Shown here: piece by piece, positions 6,245 through 35,691 of the stretch
How the letters are laid out: each line of letters opens with the position of its first letter
How positions within the stretch are numbered: the first letter of the stretch is position 1
Assembly (NCBI GenBank): GCA_030626025.1
Contig: DAOUPT010000012.1
Coordinates: 1-64,000 of the forward strand
DNA from: Anderseniella sp.
Lineage (GTDB): Bacteria; Pseudomonadota; Alphaproteobacteria; Rhizobiales; Aestuariivirgaceae
Reading direction: 5' to 3'
Length of the DNA stretch: 64,000 nt
The notes under the pieces: generated by a model
The model's database searches: none
Told to the model about the DNA's origin: nothing
The model's input: the letters and a program-made list of their open reading frames with translations, nothing else
Made by a program: the position numbers and the translations under genes

Positions 6245-6277
6245 ACAAAAAAGACCGGTGCGTTTTCCACACCGGCC
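6245..6277 (-). terminator. Rho-independent terminator of glnA
   Basis: Read on the minus strand, the arms CCGGTG and CACCGG (6255-6260 and 6270-6275, extended by flanking pairs) form a GC-rich stem with a short loop, followed by a run of six or seven T residues. It lies about 25 bases beyond the glnA stop codon. Confidence 0.85.
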
Positions 6278-6301
6278 TTAAATCTTCGTCCCAGTTTAAA
6301 C

Positions 6302-27348: not shown

Positions 27349-27796
27349 GTAACCCCGTAACCCACTTTTGATCCCAAGCAGACATTGGTGCCCGCGTTGG
27401 ATGGCAGCAAAGGGGGGGAGAGCAGCCATTCGCTTTAGATGCGTTTGAATTCTGTTACCTTCCAAATGCGGACGTTGCGACAGCAACCGGTCTGCTTCGA
27501 TTGAGTAACACAATGCCTCTTGGCGCGTAATCCCAGCTATTTACAGTTGTAAGTTCGCAACATCGATTGGGATTCACCGCCGCTGCATGTTAGTTCTATT
27601 TCAACCCCTCCGGAAAAATGCTACAAAACGTCCAAAGCCTCAAAAATCGCGCCTGGTAGCGCGTACCTGCCTCGAGTTTACGAAAAAGTAAAGTCAGACG
27701 GGCAAGAAAGGCAAATTGAGTTAGAGATGGACATCTTTATTCGGTGTTGACGATGTTGGTGCTGGCCGATCGGCCAGTTTGGGGAGGGTGATTGTT
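27349..27796. other. Non-coding stretch before the autotransporter gene
   Basis: About 450 bases without a convincing gene. Noted: TTTAC-GAAAAA-GTAAA near 27677 and the perfect 16-base palindrome CTGGCCGATCGGCCAG at 27762-27777, just before the GGGGAGGG ribosome-binding site. The rest may be decayed DNA of the repeat-flanked segment. Confidence 0.4.
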
Positions 27797-30037
27797 GTGT
27801 TAAGCTTTAAAAGCTGGCTCATTGCTGCCGTTGGTAGCTTATTTTTCATGGTTTCAGCGGTATCGCAAGCCTCGGCACAGTCGATGACAGTTTCGGTAAA
27901 TCCGACAACTTACACTACCGCTGGCGAAGTACTGACTTTTACCTACAACTTTGATTCCGGCAACAGTGTTATTGATGCCGGTTCTTTATCGGTAACCTCA
28001 ACCGTTGCCGGGATGACAGTGAATTGTGCCCCGATCGCGCAGACAACACAAGCAACGACGACCTGTACCGGTCTCCACAGTGTGACGGCTGCACAGGCCA
28101 GCCCGGGTGGCCTTGTCACTGAGGGCGGGACTTTCGACGCTACTGCATTGGGCACAATTCTAGGGGGATCTGTCGGTTTTGCCCAGGCTGCATTTCAAAG
28201 CCCCCAGGCATCACAAACAATCAGCTTTACACAACCAGCCAACCAGATATTCGCGACCGGGCTTACAGTTAATTTGACAGCGACGGCAAGCTCTGGATTG
28301 ACTGTCAGTCTTGCCACGAATTCTCCAGCGATATGTACCGTCGCAGGGTCAGTCGCAACGATTTTAGGTGTTGGGACATGTTCCATCACAGCGTCGCAAG
28401 CTGGTAACGCGAGTTTTCTGGCGGCACCTGATGTCACCCGGACTTTCACTATCAGCCAAGGTGCCCAGACCATTACCTTTACCAATCCCGGTGCCCAGAC
28501 ATTTTCGGCAGGCGGGACCGTAGCGCTTAGCGCAACCGGGGGTGGCTCAGGCAATCCGGTAACGTTCAACTCGACGACAGCGGCGGTTTGCACAGTGGCG
28601 GCAAGCACTGTGACGATGGTGGCAGCCGGTACGTGCTCAATCAATGCCAATCAGGCGGGCGACGGCAATTTCACGGCGGCTACGCAGGTTAACCAAAGCT
28701 TTGCCATCAATCAGGCCAGCCAAACCATTACATTCGTTCAGCCACCTACGACATCTTTCCTACCGGGCGCAACGGTGGCGCTTACGGCGACCTCCTCCGC
28801 AGGCCTGCCGGTCGCCTTGGCATCAAATTCACCAGGTGTGTGCACAGTTGCAGGTTTCACTGCAACGCTTGTCTCGGTCGGAACGTGTTCGATAACTGCC
28901 TCGCATGGGGGAGATGGTAATTTTCTTCCTGCCCCTAACGTAACTCGAACATTCTCAGCGTCAGGTGATGCGGTTATTAACAGGACCGGCCGCGTAATAT
29001 CCAATTTCATGGGTCGGCGCGCCGACCAGATCACAGCCAACTACCCGGACCTGGTGAACCGGCTTATCGGCGGTGTAAATGGCACCAATAGTCCGGTTAA
29101 TTTCACCGGTTCAGGTACGCTTAGAAACAACCAGTTGGCTTTTTCCACCAGCCTGCGCCAGATAGTGGCCACCAGAGAAGCAAACCTCGCGAAGAATCGG
29201 GAAGGGTCGGACAACGTCATGACTCTTGGCAATGAAAGCACGGCAGGAGGCCCCGTGATCGGTGCATCAAGCCTGGATATCTGGCTAAAGGGCACTTGGG
29301 CGAAGGTCGAGAGCGATACTCGTAACAGTGATACCGGTTTCCTATGGGCGGGTTTTGATTATCGGGTATCGCCGTCGCTGCTGTTCGGCGTTATGACGCA
29401 GTTCGACTGGGTCAATGAAAGCGATAGCGTTAACGGGACTGTGGCGAAAGGCCATGGCTGGATGGTGGGCCCCTATATGGTCAAGCGCATCGGCCCCTCT
29501 CTCTTGCTTGATGGCAGTGTGGCCTGGGGGCAGTCCAGCAATGAAGTCAGTCCGTTGGGGACTTATACCGACGGCTTTGACACCACACGATGGCTGGCAA
29601 AGGGCCAGATCACCGGCGACTTCACCCGGAGTAACTGGCGCTTTGCGCCCCATGTGGGGGTGGTCTATTTCGAGGAAAAGCAGCACAGCTACACTGACAG
29701 TTTGGGGAATTTTATCCCTAATCAAACGATATCGCTCGGCCGGGTCACGTTCGGACCGAAAGTAAGCTACGCGCGCACCCTTGAGGATGGTTCTTCCATC
29801 GGCGCCCATCTGGGTTTGAAGGGCATCTGGGACTTTGACAAGGCTGAAATAGTTAATGTGACCAGCGGCCTGGCGGCGGGGTCATCGGATAGCCTTCGCG
29901 GGCGACTTGAAGGCGGGCTCTCAATCACCATGCCAAACGGGTGGTCGCTCTCAGGCCACAGCTTCTATGACGGCATCGGAGTAGGGGATCTCGAAGCTTA
30001 TGGTGGTGGTATAGGGCTGAAAGTACCGCTAAACTGA
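27797..30037 (+). CDS. Autotransporter-type outer membrane protein with three Ig-like repeats
   Basis: A 746-residue protein. A signal peptide (to about ASAQ) is followed by an N-terminal domain and three tandem repeats of about 84 residues (roughly 137-220, 221-305, 306-389), each with SQTITF-type opening, a CTV...GTCSI cysteine pair and a GDGNF-like turn. A linker precedes an autotransporter beta-barrel (about 490-746; WLKGTWAKVESD, RLEGGLSITMPNGWS). The C-terminus KVPLN lacks the usual terminal aromatic. GTG 27797 is chosen since GGGAGGG lies eight bases upstream. Sequence style is richer in G and C than neighbours and it lies between repeat copies, suggesting transfer. Confidence 0.82.
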   Translation: MLSFKSWLIAAVGSLFFMVSAVSQASAQSMTVSVNPTTYTTAGEVLTFTYNFDSGNSVIDAGSLSVTSTVAGMTVNCAPIAQTTQATTTCTGLHSVTAAQASPGGLVTEGGTFDATALGTILGGSVGFAQAAFQSPQASQTISFTQPANQIFATGLTVNLTATASSGLTVSLATNSPAICTVAGSVATILGVGTCSITASQAGNASFLAAPDVTRTFTISQGAQTITFTNPGAQTFSAGGTVALSATGGGSGNPVTFNSTTAAVCTVAASTVTMVAAGTCSINANQAGDGNFTAATQVNQSFAINQASQTITFVQPPTTSFLPGATVALTATSSAGLPVALASNSPGVCTVAGFTATLVSVGTCSITASHGGDGNFLPAPNVTRTFSASGDAVINRTGRVISNFMGRRADQITANYPDLVNRLIGGVNGTNSPVNFTGSGTLRNNQLAFSTSLRQIVATREANLAKNREGSDNVMTLGNESTAGGPVIGASSLDIWLKGTWAKVESDTRNSDTGFLWAGFDYRVSPSLLFGVMTQFDWVNESDSVNGTVAKGHGWMVGPYMVKRIGPSLLLDGSVAWGQSSNEVSPLGTYTDGFDTTRWLAKGQITGDFTRSNWRFAPHVGVVYFEEKQHSYTDSLGNFIPNQTISLGRVTFGPKVSYARTLEDGSSIGAHLGLKGIWDFDKAEIVNVTSGLAAGSSDSLRGRLEGGLSITMPNGWSLSGHSFYDGIGVGDLEAYGGGIGLKVPLN

Positions 30038-30328: not shown

Positions 30329-30820
30329 TTACCCCAAACAAACTTCACTCTCAAACTCACGCTCTTCCAGATTATCCCCCGGCCCCATGCGATCCACAAC
30401 CAGAAACCGGCTGTCAGCTTCCAGCACCAACAGCGGGTGGTGCCAGATGTTGGGGGCGTAGTTTATGCCTTGCAAGCCGGTGGCGCGGAAGGCTTTGAGA
30501 TTTTTAGGGTCGAGCGGGTTTGGGTCTGAGGCAACGACGATCAGCCAGTCGTGGTTTTGTAACGGGTAGAATGCCTGACTGCCCAGTGGATGGCGTTCCA
30601 TCACTTCAAGTTTGATTGGCATTGGTCGCGATTGGGTCTCGAAAATAGAGATAATCGGCTTACCGCCGACCCGGTTGAGGTCGAGATGAGCAAGATTGTG
30701 AAAGCGCTCGGTCGTACCCTGATTAATCGGAAAATGATCAGCCCCGTCCTTTTCGATGACTTCGCCAAAACGGGCAAAAGATTCTCGGGTGAGGGGGGTG
30801 ATAGAAAGGATTGTCGTCAC
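30329..30820 (-). CDS. allA: Ureidoglycolate lyase
   Basis: A 163-residue protein of the usual AllA length. Family segments include ITPLTRESFARFGEVIE, a FHNLAHLDL motif, VMERHPLGSQAFYPL, WLIVVASDP and GINYAPNIWHHPLLVL, the last holding the active-site histidines. It cleaves ureidoglycolate to glyoxylate and urea. The GTG at 30820 gives the normal N-terminus (TTILSITPLT); a longer start at 30868 is possible. No allantoin or urease genes are near. A longer AllA-like paralogue lies at 5547. Confidence 0.85.
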   Translation of the reverse strand: MTTILSITPLTRESFARFGEVIEKDGADHFPINQGTTERFHNLAHLDLNRVGGKPIISIFETQSRPMPIKLEVMERHPLGSQAFYPLQNHDWLIVVASDPNPLDPKNLKAFRATGLQGINYAPNIWHHPLLVLEADSRFLVVDRMGPGDNLEEREFESEVCLG

Positions 30821-30984
30821 AACTTTGGCTCGCTGATGGTTTGGCGAAACCTTGAAGTTAATTGTCATCAGGTGCAAGTGTTAAAATGTAGTTTAGAATG
30901 TTTGAATATTAGAATATTCGCATGTGACAACCTGCCACATATATTAGATCTTCCACATATACGAAAACATCTATATAACTAAAT

Positions 30985-31089
30985 CAACTTCTGAACGGGA
31001 CCTTCTTATTTGAGAAGGCGGCCCCAAGGCAAGTTTACCTCCCTGAACTGTTTCCCGGATTGTGGTTTTCCATAATCCGGGTTTTTTTT
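30985..31089 (+). ncRNA. Candidate small RNA with intrinsic terminator
   Basis: No plus-strand gene precedes the strong terminator at 31054, so it probably ends an RNA gene. A promoter-like pair TTCCAC (30951) and TATAAC (30974), 17 bases apart, predicts a start near 30985. The RNA would have a first hairpin CCTTCT/AGAAGG (31001-31018) extended by GGG/CCC, an open stretch with CCTCCCTGAAC (about 31038-31049) and the terminator. An exposed CUCCC next to a U-tailed terminator is the style of Hfq-dependent alphaproteobacterial sRNAs such as the AbcR/alpha-r15 group; family membership is unproven. Confidence 0.6.
31054..31089 (+). terminator. Strong Rho-independent terminator
   Basis: CCCGGATT and AATCCGGG form a perfect 8-bp stem with further TGG/CCA pairing inside, followed by eight T residues. 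It is on the plus strand between two minus-strand genes. Confidence 0.92.
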
Positions 31090-31183
31090 ATTTTGGTTGC
31101 CCGGTTCCGCTTATTCCAACTGCTTCTCCGGCACATTCCGCATCGCTCCAGGCGGTTCTCCGGCCATTCTCCGCTGTGCCCAC

Positions 31184-31978
31184 TCATTTAAATGGCAGCA
31201 GCAAACACCAAATAATATTGGTCGGTTTGTCGCTTTGAAACTTTTTCATGCCGATCACCATCTCTTCATGGCCATCGCGCGGTTGGTCGATATAGGTGCC
31301 GAAAATCCGATCCCAGATGGCCAGATTAAAGCCGTAATTGCTGTCGGTTTCATCCTTATGGAACGAGTGGTGCACCCGGTGCATATCGGGCGTAACAAAC
31401 AGCATTCTAACGACTTTATCCACCCCGAGAGGCAGGCGTACATTGGCGTGATTAAACATTGCCGAGCCGTTTAAAAGCACTTCAAACAGGAACACACCCA
31501 TTGCGGCTGGACCAACCAGAATGATGATCACAAATTTGTACAGCATCGATAAAACAATCTCGATGGGGTGAAATCGGGTGCCGGTGGAAACATCAATATC
31601 ACGGTCCGCATGATGCACCCGGTGGACCCGCCACAGGATTGGCACCTTGTGAGAAACAACATGCTGCCAATAGATCGCCATGTCCATCAAAACAGCAGAA
31701 ATCAGCACTTTAAGCCAGAAGGGAAGGGCGATCAGGTTTAGTAATCCCCAGCCTTTTGATGTTGCATATTGGGCCACACCAACCGCAACGACAGGGAAAA
31801 TAATCCGTACCGCGATGCTATCAATCACCACGATGCCAATGTTGGTGAACCATCTGGAAAATCGTGGCTGTGTACGTTTTTTGCGCGGCCATAAAGCCTC
31901 GGCAATCGCCATAATGACAAACACACCGGCAAAGATGCTCAGGCGGATTGTTGTTTCACTGGCAAATTCAAATTCCAT
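31184..31978 (-). CDS. Sterol desaturase / fatty acid hydroxylase family membrane protein
   Basis: A 264-residue membrane protein with about five helices and the full set of histidine boxes for a di-iron centre: HVVSHK, HRVHHAD and, later, HRVHHS with an extra FNHAN segment. Family members hydroxylate or desaturate lipids using O2. The specific lipid is not evident. It lies 11 bases downstream of the ChaN-like gene on the same strand, so it may be the distal gene of the BigR-led transcript. Confidence 0.88.
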   Translation of the reverse strand: MEFEFASETTIRLSIFAGVFVIMAIAEALWPRKKRTQPRFSRWFTNIGIVVIDSIAVRIIFPVVAVGVAQYATSKGWGLLNLIALPFWLKVLISAVLMDMAIYWQHVVSHKVPILWRVHRVHHADRDIDVSTGTRFHPIEIVLSMLYKFVIIILVGPAAMGVFLFEVLLNGSAMFNHANVRLPLGVDKVVRMLFVTPDMHRVHHSFHKDETDSNYGFNLAIWDRIFGTYIDQPRDGHEEMVIGMKKFQSDKPTNIIWCLLLPFK

Positions 31979-31989
31979 GGCTAATGCCC

Positions 31990-33003
31990 CTATTTGGATT
32001 TGTGTTTTTTAAACCTTTTCGCCAGCTCGGCACAATGATCCTTGATCTCCGATTTTGGCGTAAAATACAAATAGTCAAAAACCGGGTTGTTGTCAGCAGA
32101 TTCCGGTTCATAATCCTGCGGCTTTTTGTTATCAGGCGTGACTTCGGTGAACGAAACCGAGACAATCTTGCTGTCAGGGTCCCGCGCCGCCAAAATCCGC
32201 GGCACCGCCCAATCCCGCCGAATATGGCCACTTCCGGCGATCAAAACCGCCGCTGAACCAGACGGTGCAGCCAACATCGCCCCGGCCATAAAACCATCGC
32301 GCGCCTGTTGTACCAGTTGCATCGGTGAAAGTGCGGCTCTGGGAACGAATTTACAATGAGAGTCAAACAGCATGTCGGTTAAAAGTTTTGACTGTGTTTT
32401 CGTATATGGAACATCCAGCGAAAGTTCGGTTGTTTCTTTATTATTCAGAGCCTTAACGCCTTTTGTGCCGATTTTACGAGTATCTTTGCGATCAAGGTTT
32501 CCAGGCAAAATATCCAGATTCAATCGGTAGGCGACGTCGAATATCGGCTTGTAATTGGCCCACTCACCCCAGCCGCGCTTTTCCCATTCAAGTACGCCGC
32601 CGAGTTCTTGGGTTTGTTTAGGTTTGGCCTTTCGAAACTTGTTTAAAATCGGCCCGTAACGCTTTGGAATCATTTCAACAACCAGGCGAGGGCTAGATTT
32701 GGCCGAACCGGCAATCTCGGCCAGATATTTCGCCTGTAACAAATGATGATCTTTGTTGGTATGAATTTCCCCCAGCAGGACAAAGCGGGCAGATTTCAGC
32801 CGGATAGACAATTGTTCCGGCGAAATAAAAACCTTTTCGCGGCTCGACCAGACTTTCCCGATCAGCTGATGATCCTGAAAATGCTCAGAAAACCATCGAT
32901 TGTTGTTGGTCGATTCGCCCAATACAATGCCGCTTCCGGCAGTCATAACCAGAAAAGAGAGAGGGAAAATAAGAGGCTTTATTGACAATCGGATTTTGTA
33001 CAA
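31990..33003 (-). CDS. ChaN/DUF399-family haem-binding-type protein
   Basis: A protein of about 330 residues with an N-terminal hydrophobic signal (SIKPLIFPLSFLVMTAG) and the ChaN fold: FVLLGEIHTNKDHHLLQA, RLVVEMIPKRY, and AAVLIAGSGHIRRDWAVP. ChaN proteins are iron-regulated and bind haem cofacially; some are lipoproteins, but no clear lipobox is seen here. The frame starts at TTG 33003, overlapping the end of the BigR-type gene by 25 bases; TTG 32988 is as likely. The overlap shows tight coupling to the repressor gene. Confidence 0.78.
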   Translation of the reverse strand: MYKIRLSIKPLIFPLSFLVMTAGSGIVLGESTNNNRWFSEHFQDHQLIGKVWSSREKVFISPEQLSIRLKSARFVLLGEIHTNKDHHLLQAKYLAEIAGSAKSSPRLVVEMIPKRYGPILNKFRKAKPKQTQELGGVLEWEKRGWGEWANYKPIFDVAYRLNLDILPGNLDRKDTRKIGTKGVKALNNKETTELSLDVPYTKTQSKLLTDMLFDSHCKFVPRAALSPMQLVQQARDGFMAGAMLAAPSGSAAVLIAGSGHIRRDWAVPRILAARDPDSKIVSVSFTEVTPDNKKPQDYEPESADNNPVFDYLYFTPKSEIKDHCAELAKRFKKHKSK

Positions 33004-33314
33004 AATAATTTATAGAGTACTGCGATCACTTCACGGGCATCATTGCTGGCAAGTGAATAATACACGGCCTTGCCATCACGCCGTGTCGTTACCATACGCT
33101 CAGCCCTAAGTCTTTGAAGTTGCTGGGAAACACTGGCCTGTCGGATGCCAAGAGACTCTTCCAGCTCACTGACGGATTTTTCACCTTCCATCAAAAAACA
33201 CAAAACCCGCAAGCGCGTTTCATGGGACATTGCCTTGAGAAACTCACACGCCGCACGAGCGTTTTTTGCCATTTCATCAGCAGATACGACCACATCGTCG
33301 ACCATTGCATCCAT
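32979..33314 (-). CDS. bigR: ArsR-family persulfide-sensing repressor (BigR/SqrR type)
   Basis: A 111-residue ArsR protein. Cys39 (RVLCFLMEG) and Cys105 (LYKLFC) are 66 residues apart, exactly the spacing of the sensor cysteines in BigR and SqrR, which form a disulfide or polysulfide bridge on exposure to reactive sulfur and release DNA. The recognition helix is RQASVSQQLQRL. ATG 33314 follows AGGGTGG. An ATTC-N8-GAAT operator lies about 40 bases upstream, indicating autoregulation. Sulfide dehydrogenase genes on the other side of the thioredoxin gene fit the role. Confidence 0.88.
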   Translation of the reverse strand: MDAMVDDVVVSADEMAKNARAACEFLKAMSHETRLRVLCFLMEGEKSVSELEESLGIRQASVSQQLQRLRAERMVTTRRDGKAVYYSLASNDAREVIAVLYKLFCTKSDCQ

Positions 33315-33351
33315 TGTTTCCACCCTGAAAACGATTTGTATTTATTCACGT

Positions 33352-33367
33352 ATTCTAGGATATGAAT
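33352..33367. promoter_or_regulatory. BigR/SqrR-type operator
   Basis: ATTC-TAGGATAT-GAAT is an exact ATTC-N8-GAAT palindrome, the site reported for SqrR. It lies 38-53 bases before the BigR-type start codon; a further ATTC is 10 bases away. Confidence 0.7.
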
Positions 33368-33422
33368 GCAAAAAGGGCAAATCCAATTTTTATTAGACGT
33401 TAGTCGTAGTGTCTGAGCTTTT

Positions 33423-33821
33423 TCAGGACGCCGGGATTTGCAATTTTTTGACTTTGGCTCTTTTCTGTCCTTTTTTGATCATTTCATCCAGCATTCCCCA
33501 GAAGAAGTCTTCGCCTGGATAGCCGCGAATCCGGCCAATTTCCTTACCATTGTCCAGCAACACAAATGTAGGTGTAAAGTGGGCAGCCCTTAGGTGTTTC
33601 AGGTCTTTTGGGCGCGGATCAAAAATATCCACCCGGCGAAGCGGGGCCAGTTTGCCTTCGGTTGTTTTGGGGTAGACGCCCGAGATTTCCTTATCCCAGA
33701 CTTCGCACCATTCGCAATCATCCTGTTCGAACATAATCAGTTCCATTGCCGCCAGTTTGCCGGGAAGGACCATCAGGAAAAGGCTTAAAGTCAAGACGAT
33801 AGAAGCGATGCGAGATACCAT
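33423..33821 (-). CDS. Periplasmic thioredoxin-like protein (SoxS/SoxW-like)
   Basis: A 132-residue protein with signal peptide (MVSRIASIVLTLSLFLM, to about LAAME) and a thioredoxin fold. The active site is Cys36-Glu-Trp-Cys39 (DDCEWCEVW), and FTPTFVLLDNGKEIGRI supplies the cis-proline strand. Related periplasmic thioredoxins in sulfur-oxidising bacteria reduce Sox or sulfide-oxidising components. ATG 33821 is chosen as the start of the signal peptide. It lies between the BigR-type gene (same strand) and the divergent fccAB genes, so it may share their control. Confidence 0.82.
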   Translation of the reverse strand: MVSRIASIVLTLSLFLMVLPGKLAAMELIMFEQDDCEWCEVWDKEISGVYPKTTEGKLAPLRRVDIFDPRPKDLKHLRAAHFTPTFVLLDNGKEIGRIRGYPGEDFFWGMLDEMIKKGQKRAKVKKLQIPAS

Positions 33822-33929
33822 TTTTGTCACCAAATAAATTCCATTATCAGCATAGATACAACATTCTAGCATGTCTGGCAAAGAGACAGAGCTTGCGTTT
33901 CAGTCACGGCTTCGTGAAAATAAACATTG

Positions 33930-33968
33930 ACTATTTGGTATTCATACTATTTGATATTCGAATGTCAA
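33930..33968. promoter_or_regulatory. Direct repeats and palindrome upstream of fccA
   Basis: ACTATTTGGTATTC (33930) and ACTATTTGATATTC (33946) are near-identical with a 16-base period. Overlapping their right end is the near-perfect palindrome TTGATATTCGAATGTCAA (33951-33968), 20 bases before the fccA start. The TATTC/GAATG core resembles the ATTC/GAAT half-sites of the BigR operator, though with different spacing. A repressor site for the sulfide operon is likely. Confidence 0.55.
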
Positions 33969-33988
33969 TATATGTTCGTGGAGGGACG

Positions 33989-34303
33989 ATGGGACTATTA
34001 ATACGTTTAGCAGCCGCAGCCTCGACCACACTGGTTTTGGCCACCGCAGTTCACGCTGATGAAAAAGTCGAATACGGCGAGTATCTTTCAGGTTCATGCG
34101 TGACCTGTCACCAGCTTTCTGGTGCTGACAATGGTATTCCAGCAATTGTTGGCTGGGATGCGGAAGCATTTGTTGAAGTACTTCTCTCCTACAAAACCAA
34201 AGAGCGCGATAACAAAGCGATGCAAACCATTGCCATACCACTTTCAAAAGAAGAAATGGAGGCTTTGGCTGCCTATTTCGCCACAATCAAAGCAAAAGAA
34301 TAA
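33989..34303 (+). CDS. fccA: Monohaem cytochrome c subunit of flavocytochrome c sulfide dehydrogenase
   Basis: A 104-residue secreted cytochrome: signal peptide to about AVHADE, then haem motif CVTCH (C37, C40, H41), a Pro-rich loop (GIPAIVGWD) and a distal Met in KAMQTIAIP. It passes electrons from the FccB flavin to the respiratory chain. GGAGGGACG before ATG 33989 is a strong ribosome-binding site; the longer frame from 33824 is not. The flavoprotein gene follows after 54 bases. Confidence 0.88.
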   Translation: MGLLIRLAAAASTTLVLATAVHADEKVEYGEYLSGSCVTCHQLSGADNGIPAIVGWDAEAFVEVLLSYKTKERDNKAMQTIAIPLSKEEMEALAAYFATIKAKE

Positions 34304-34357
34304 TTATACTAATGAGTTGACTACTGTCTATTTTTCAATCCCTGAGGAGGAAATAAA

Positions 34358-35638
34358 ATGAAACTAAACAGACGCGAATTTAACATAGCAGCCGGTGCAT
34401 CTACACTGACACTGGGTTTGGGTGCTGCACCAATGGTTTTTGCTGGAAATGCAAAACCAAAAGTCGTCGTAATTGGCGGTGGTACAGGTGGTGCAACAGC
34501 AGCGCGCTACATTGCCAAAGACTCAAAAGGCGCTATCGATGTTACGCTGATTGAACCTACAAAACGCTACTACACCTGCTATTTCTCAAACCTCTACATT
34601 GGCGGTTTCCGCGAATATGAATCACTTGGCCATTCCTATGCCAAACTGGCATCTGAATACGGTATCAATGTCATTCACGACTGGGCCGTTACTGTTGATC
34701 GCAAGAAAAAAATGGTTGTTCTGGGCTCCGGTTCAATGGTTCCTTACGACAAGCTGGTGGTTTCACCGGGAATTGACCTGAAATTTGCATCGGTTGCTGA
34801 AGGTTATTCTGTTGCAGACCAGGGTATTTTCCCGCACGCTTGGAAATCGGGCACTCAAGCGCAATTGCTTAAAGCCAAGGTAACCGGCATGAAGCAGGGC
34901 GGTACATTCCTGATGGTGCCTCCGCCAAATCCTTTCCGCTGCCCTCCCGGGCCTTATGAGCGGATTTCCATGATTGCTCATCATTTCAAGAACAACAATC
35001 CAACCGCGAAAATTGTTATCCTTGATCCAAAAGACAAGTTCTCCAAAATGGGCCTGTTTAAGGATGGTTGGGAACGCCATTACAAGGGTATGATCGACTG
35101 GCAACCACTGTCGTCACTTGGTGGTTTGAAAAGCATTAACACCGCAACCGGAGAGTTTGTAACCGATCTTGACACCTTCAAAGCCGATGCTGCTTGCGTT
35201 ATTCCTGCAAACACATCAGGCCAAATTGCCAAAACAGCCGGTCTTACCAACGACAAGGGCTGGTGTCCTATCCATCAGGGTTCAATGAAGTCAAAAGTTG
35301 ACCCAGATGTGTATGTGATCGGTGATGCTTCGGTAGCTTCATCCATGCCGAAATCGGGCTTTGCTGCCAACAGCCAGGCCAAGGTTTGTGCCATGGCCGT
35401 GCGCGGTGAATTGACCAAATCCAAAGTGTTCCCGGCCAGGTATGCCAACACTTGTTGGAGCCTGATTGCACCAAATGACGGTGTTAAAGTGGGGGCAACA
35501 TATAAGGCTGGTGACAAGAAAATCGATCCAACATCGAAATTCATCTCCAAAAACGGTGAAGACGCTGATACCCGCCAGGCAACATACGAGGAATCTGTTG
35601 GCTGGTATGCCGGCATCACAGCTGATATTTTCGGCTAA
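34358..35638 (+). CDS. fccB: Sulfide dehydrogenase flavoprotein subunit (FccB/SoxF)
   Basis: A 426-residue Tat-exported flavoprotein (NRREFNIAAG signal). The FAD-binding loop VVVIGGGTGGATAARYI (about 36-52) opens the mature protein. Cys195 in FRCPPGPYER and Cys366 in NTCWSLI match the redox-active disulfide where sulfide attacks. A C-terminal GDAS motif contacts FAD. The enzyme oxidises sulfide in the periplasm to sulfur or polysulfide and gives electrons to FccA. GAGGAGG precedes the ATG and a terminator follows. Confidence 0.92.
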   Translation: MKLNRREFNIAAGASTLTLGLGAAPMVFAGNAKPKVVVIGGGTGGATAARYIAKDSKGAIDVTLIEPTKRYYTCYFSNLYIGGFREYESLGHSYAKLASEYGINVIHDWAVTVDRKKKMVVLGSGSMVPYDKLVVSPGIDLKFASVAEGYSVADQGIFPHAWKSGTQAQLLKAKVTGMKQGGTFLMVPPPNPFRCPPGPYERISMIAHHFKNNNPTAKIVILDPKDKFSKMGLFKDGWERHYKGMIDWQPLSSLGGLKSINTATGEFVTDLDTFKADAACVIPANTSGQIAKTAGLTNDKGWCPIHQGSMKSKVDPDVYVIGDASVASSMPKSGFAANSQAKVCAMAVRGELTKSKVFPARYANTCWSLIAPNDGVKVGATYKAGDKKIDPTSKFISKNGEDADTRQATYEESVGWYAGITADIFG

Positions 35639-35661
35639 AACGCCTACCGCACTAGATTTAT

Positions 35662-35691
35662 GGCCGTCTCGAAGGAGGCGGCCGTTTTTTT
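35662..35691 (+). terminator. Rho-independent terminator of fccAB
   Basis: GGCCGTCTC (35662-35670) pairs with GAGGCGGCC (35675-35683) around GAAG, followed within one base by seven T residues, 24 bases after the fccB stop codon. Confidence 0.92.

Follow-up and report, generated by a model that had tools for sequence, protein, structure and literature searches.

The window – the 64 kb stretch of DNA analysed here, on contig C12 of a 3.7 Mb draft genome from a genus of uncultured Hyphomicrobiales – very probably encodes a regulatory small RNA (sRNA) that covers the ribosome-binding sites of mRNAs. We consider it likely that the locus is a gene in its own right, producing a trans-acting RNA, about 104 nt long, that carries a single anti-Shine-Dalgarno (aSD) site. 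The sequence shows a promoter region, a core and a terminator that belong to this gene and are conserved, and that occur together in two gene neighbourhoods unrelated to each other. An earlier note on this DNA had proposed an orphan trans-acting sRNA whose aSD tract is exposed; the proposal is well supported, the RNA being kept in three congeners, one of them with other neighbours, and the coordinates given for it (30985-31089, ~105 nt) were off by no more than a base or two.

Table 1. Coordinates of features at and around the sRNA locus, numbered from the first base of the window.
Feature	Position	Strand	Basis or remark
Ureidoglycolate lyase gene	30329-30877	-	Flanks the sRNA locus
Conserved upstream element GCATGTGACAACCTGCCACATATATTAGA	30920-30948	+	Column identity in four genomes
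Imperfect palindrome ATGTGACAACCTGCCACAT	30922-30940	+	Centre about 55 bp 5′ of the predicted sRNA start
Predicted sigma-70-type promoter TTCCAC-17-TATAAC	30951-30979	+	TATAA core in four of four genomes
Predicted sRNA, about 104 nt	30986-31089	+	blastn to congeners, model R1, fold z
5′ domain	30986-31035	+	AACUUCU (30986-30992) can pair with GGcAAGUU (31028-31035); RNAalifold
Anti-Shine-Dalgarno core GUUUA-CCUCCC-UGAAC	31033-31048	+	24 of 27 columns (31027-31053) identical in four genomes
Intrinsic terminator CCCGGATTGTGG-TTTT-CCATAATCCGGG + T8	31054-31089	+	12-pair stem, 4-base loop
Fatty-acid hydroxylase gene	31184-31978	-	Other flank; converges on the sRNA locus

Evidence for the 3′ end of the gene came from a scan of both strands for perfect stems of at least 11 pairs followed by at least seven T in eight bases. 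Three such sites were observed in 64 kb against 0.1 expected from Markov shuffles, and at the sRNA locus the T tail is present solely on the plus side. Both flanking genes being on the minus strand, no plus-strand gene lies 5′ of this terminator; the earlier note had claimed as much for its strength and its orphan position. The other two long-stem, T-rich terminators of the window are at 35660-35685 (+) and 6251-6279 (-). Four pairs of the stem (7, 9, 10 and 11) are changed on both sides with pairing kept in the homologue L011 of congener G003, as judged from hand-aligned arms, and one pair of the RNA's inner hairpin goes from G-C to A-U in the same sequence – covariation drawn from four sequences, and for the most part from this one.

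At the other end, the predicted promoter finishes 7 nt 5′ of position 30986. The promoter-like pair of the earlier note is thus present and at the right distance, its TATAA core correctly spaced from the conserved 5′ end in all four genomes, but its match to the consensus is weak. A consensus scan also returned a competing pair, TTCGCA-17-TATATT at 30917-30945, which overlaps the upstream element and leaves the start site of the sRNA not fixed. The upstream element itself is conserved: 25 of 31 columns (30918-30948) are identical across the four genomes, as against 9 of 50 further upstream. Its palindrome is probably the site of an activator or repressor. None of the four genomes has the exact motif anywhere but at the sRNA locus; elsewhere there are only mismatched sites, and one of these, inspected in the source genome, falls within an open reading frame. 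Either, then, the regulator's site is specific to this gene or further sites for the regulator exist in more degenerate form.

The DNA of the sRNA is single copy in the source genome and in each of three congeners, where it matches at 73-75% identity (blastn E 5e-23, 3e-21 and 2e-15). R1, a covariance model trained on these four sequences, scores 89-105 bits in the four genomes, matches that follow by construction, and the next best score among 38 relatives is 30 bits. Promoter, 5′ end (10 of 13 columns identical), aSD core and terminator are kept in the three congeners, while flanks and loop sequence have diverged: identity falls to 2 of 28 columns in the inner hairpin and 2 of 36 downstream. 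In two congeners (G001 and G002) the RNA adjoins the same hydroxylase gene as in the window; in G003 its neighbours are clpX and a gene for 3-hydroxyacyl-CoA dehydrogenase, one on each side and both named from their translations. Because promoter and RNA are kept there next to different neighbours, we regard the locus as an independent transcription unit and not as the leader or tail of a neighbouring gene.

Outside the genus the RNA was found neither in 297 genomes of the order under strict filters nor in the 38 relatives under sensitive ones. The exact 18-mer core, sought in 84,980 GTDB genomes, returned the three congeners and six further stretches that have no sRNA context and are taken as chance. 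Weak blastn matches in another genus, g5 (L012, L018 and L020), were rejected, their common part being only GGCCCCAAGGCA-GTTTAC, with neither aSD site nor terminator. Within the samples searched, the sRNA thus appears restricted to one genus.

Folded as a 105-nt RNA, the transcript reaches -37.8 kcal/mol (z = -3.5), a value equalled by 0 of 200 shuffles, and it contains no coding frame. A closing stem of the 5′ domain, formable by all four sequences, encloses the inner hairpin (30997-31024); the stem is nearly invariant and so gives no covariation, neither for nor against it. The first hairpin described in the earlier note exists but is variable within the genus. The single aSD site, CCUCCC at 31038-31043, lies in a hairpin loop closed by five pairs in a fold that competes with the closing stem, the gap between the two being 0.3-1.6 kcal/mol across the four RNAs. 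So close are they in energy, only about 1.5 kcal/mol apart, that either would present the seed: CCUCCC is unpaired in both, with a mean unpaired probability of 0.96-1.00 in the window RNA and its three homologues (at least 0.95 in all four), and its exposure, claimed from the first inspection, is borne out.

The sequence CCUCCC is complementary to Shine-Dalgarno sequences, and the route by which the RNA may act can be sketched. A DNA-binding regulator at the upstream palindrome would control transcription, and Hfq would bind at the 3′ tail, which is rich in U. The accessible CCUCCC, part of UUUACCUCCCUGAAC, would base-pair with the purine-rich Shine-Dalgarno regions of several mRNAs, keep ribosomes out and hasten mRNA decay. 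The arms GUUUA and UGAAC would alternate, either closing the CCUCCC loop or leaving the whole stretch free when AACUUCU pairs with GGCAAGUU. Hfq dependence is plausible given an hfq gene in the source genome (G000:C23, 124.5 bits) and the long U8 3′ tail. Precedent comes from SisA, an alphaR8 RNA of Caulobacter, whose core, of the type UUUCCUCCCU, represses by pairing upstream of a start codon, as compensatory changes show (PMC12559287), and from AbcR1/2 of S. meliloti, which also act through aSD motifs (PMC8844928). By analogy with these, and with the hfq gene and U8 tail in mind, Hfq-assisted translation block of several mRNAs is the most likely mode of action.

Target prediction with the aSD tract was a check proposed in the earlier note. 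A 15-nt complement search gave 13 sites apart from the sRNA genes themselves, numbers that exceed a reversed control pattern by no more than a little. Sites near start codons belong to a sugar ABC transporter ATPase (G003), a 293-aa protein (source genome) and a 146-aa protein (G003); each occurs in a single genome, and the ABC gene of G003 has no close relative in the source genome. No target with long complementarity conserved across the genus was found.

A separate issue is where the RNA came from. The strongest rival – one of descent, compatible with the proposed mode of action – holds that it is a fast-diverged paralogue of alphaR8 (suhB/MmgR/SisA), produced by duplication of the canonical copy as in Caulobacter SisA-D; we consider this a serious possibility, though somewhat short of an even chance. 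The order of elements is the same (weak hairpin, UUU(A)CCUCCCU, RRACU, terminator), the terminator following directly on the core, and suhB (RF00519) is among the best sub-threshold Rfam matches of the window RNA and of L038. Its scores there, however, are 19.4 and 21.8 bits respectively against a gathering cut-off of 41. By score, identity with alphaR8 is not supported, and the canonical copy of the same genome sits elsewhere, at G000:C13:1478-1578 (L073, L103; 61.4 bits), adjoining an inositol monophosphatase gene. Where alphaR8 exposes the 10-mer given above for SisA, the window RNA has UUUACCUCCCU, with one base inserted, and CCUCCC exposed in all four homologues.

Similarity of the flanks beyond the aSD heptamer does not reach significance against canonical alphaR8 copies (p 0.06-0.14). 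Two RNAs of sister genera that look intermediate, L045 and L044, give p values of 0.006 and 0.02, uncorrected for the number of comparisons. A leave-out model, R2, made from canonical alphaR8 without the window type, misses the window RNA; with only 3 base pairs it is a weak test, and its scores for the related BjrC1505 type are poor too. Finally, NsiR1 and anti-hemB have sub-threshold matches at the locus that score about as well as suhB, so that an aSD site plus terminator, held in common, explains the suhB matches. This suggests that CCUCCC followed by a terminator is a common, probably convergent plan. In the sister genera L041, L044, L045, L048 and L049 are unannotated CCUCCC RNAs with terminators that fall under Rfam cut-offs, and they probably represent additional aSD sRNAs built on the same plan.

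A bolder reading is that the sRNA arose anew within the genus, independently of alphaR8 and AbcR and with a dedicated regulator site, and that its AACUUCU 5′ end is a switch: by competing for GUU with the CCUCCC hairpin, it would set how far the seed is exposed. Taken as a whole we think this unlikely.

Other explanations fare worse. One is that the RNA is a decoy (sponge) that titrates away mRNA leaders or other RNAs, or that antisense read-through from the hydroxylase gene controls it. Sponges of aSD sRNAs exist, CrfA for SisA being the precedent (PMC12559287), and as no terminator for the minus-strand hydroxylase gene was seen before the sRNA (31090-31183) its mRNA might read antisense over it. 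A sponge of this kind should be G/A-rich, however, whereas the window RNA itself bears a C/U-rich aSD site, and in G003 another gene converges on the locus; we regard the explanation as highly improbable. Marginally less credible still is the view that no independent RNA exists, the hairpin being just the terminator or leader of a gene alongside. The locus is intergenic and the hydroxylase gene converges on the hairpin, but the strand of both neighbours, the plus-side T tail and the retention of promoter, core and terminator beside other genes in G003 stand against it, and the best conserved part of the RNA is the core outside the terminator. That the window RNA is an AbcR (alpha-r15) is least credible of all, and membership was rejected: host, length and a CU-rich aSD site agree, but the covariance-model check against alpha-r families that had been proposed gave no match to Rfam ar15 (RF02345) at E up to 5, the four genus genomes contain no ar15 gene above cut-off, and the RNA is single copy with one aSD site.

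Elsewhere in the window, a run at 32979-35638 comprises an ArsR-type regulator, a thioredoxin-like protein and two proteins identified from their translations alone, a c-type cytochrome and a sulfide dehydrogenase of the flavocytochrome-c type; it looks like a sulfur-oxidation cluster. The 752-aa product of 27779-30037 contains repeated domains and, at its C terminus, an autotransporter beta-domain (PF03797, 52 bits).

Returning to the reading of the locus as a gene for a trans-acting aSD sRNA, what has been recognised is in all likelihood an unannotated, genus-restricted gene whose mode of action would resemble that of alphaR8 and AbcR and whose layout is known. Such an sRNA would be no surprise to specialists. 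It does add one well-conserved, lineage-restricted member to the CCUCCC regulators of alphaproteobacteria, and it bears on the frequency with which CCUCCC RNAs arise de novo and not through duplication, as well as on the division of targets among several RNAs with one seed.

The window RNA appears to be a third CCUCCC-type RNA of the source genome, besides canonical alphaR8 and BjrC1505. BjrC1505 (RF02356), like NsiR1 (RF02399) and anti-hemB (RF02837), also has a CCUCCC- or CCCUGA-type tract and then a terminator. It has no match at the sRNA locus and a separate gene in the source genome (L074, G000:C30:87285-87360, 76.6 bits). L074 cross-matches suhB at 41.5 bits, with similar sequences at suhB matches in G002, G003 and G020; the suhB model does not cleanly part BjrC1505 from alphaR8, and L074, being BjrC1505, was rejected as a second alphaR8 sibling. 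NfeR1 (alpha-r14) resembles the window RNA in having a CCUCC-type aSD in unpaired regions; it has three hairpins, each with CCUCCUCCC (PMC10746234), where the window RNA has one site.

AbcR1 and AbcR2 are likewise alphaproteobacterial aSD sRNAs that work on ribosome-binding sites with Hfq, and in this general sense the AbcR style suggested by the earlier note stands, even though membership of the family does not. They differ from the window RNA in having two aSD motifs, CUCCUCCC and UUCCCCUC (PMC8844928), and in S. meliloti their genes are in tandem by lsrB. The alphaR8 RNAs – MmgR of S. meliloti and SisA-D of C. crescentus – come nearer. Unlike them, the window RNA has an extra A in the 10-mer, no GGGC stem and no inositol monophosphatase gene alongside, and its score falls below the Rfam cut-off. 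They are nonetheless short and intergenic as it is, with a weak hairpin, an exposed UUU(A)CCUCCCU and an intrinsic terminator, and Caulobacter siblings with unrelated promoters are known; alphaR8 offers the nearest layout and the closest working parallel.
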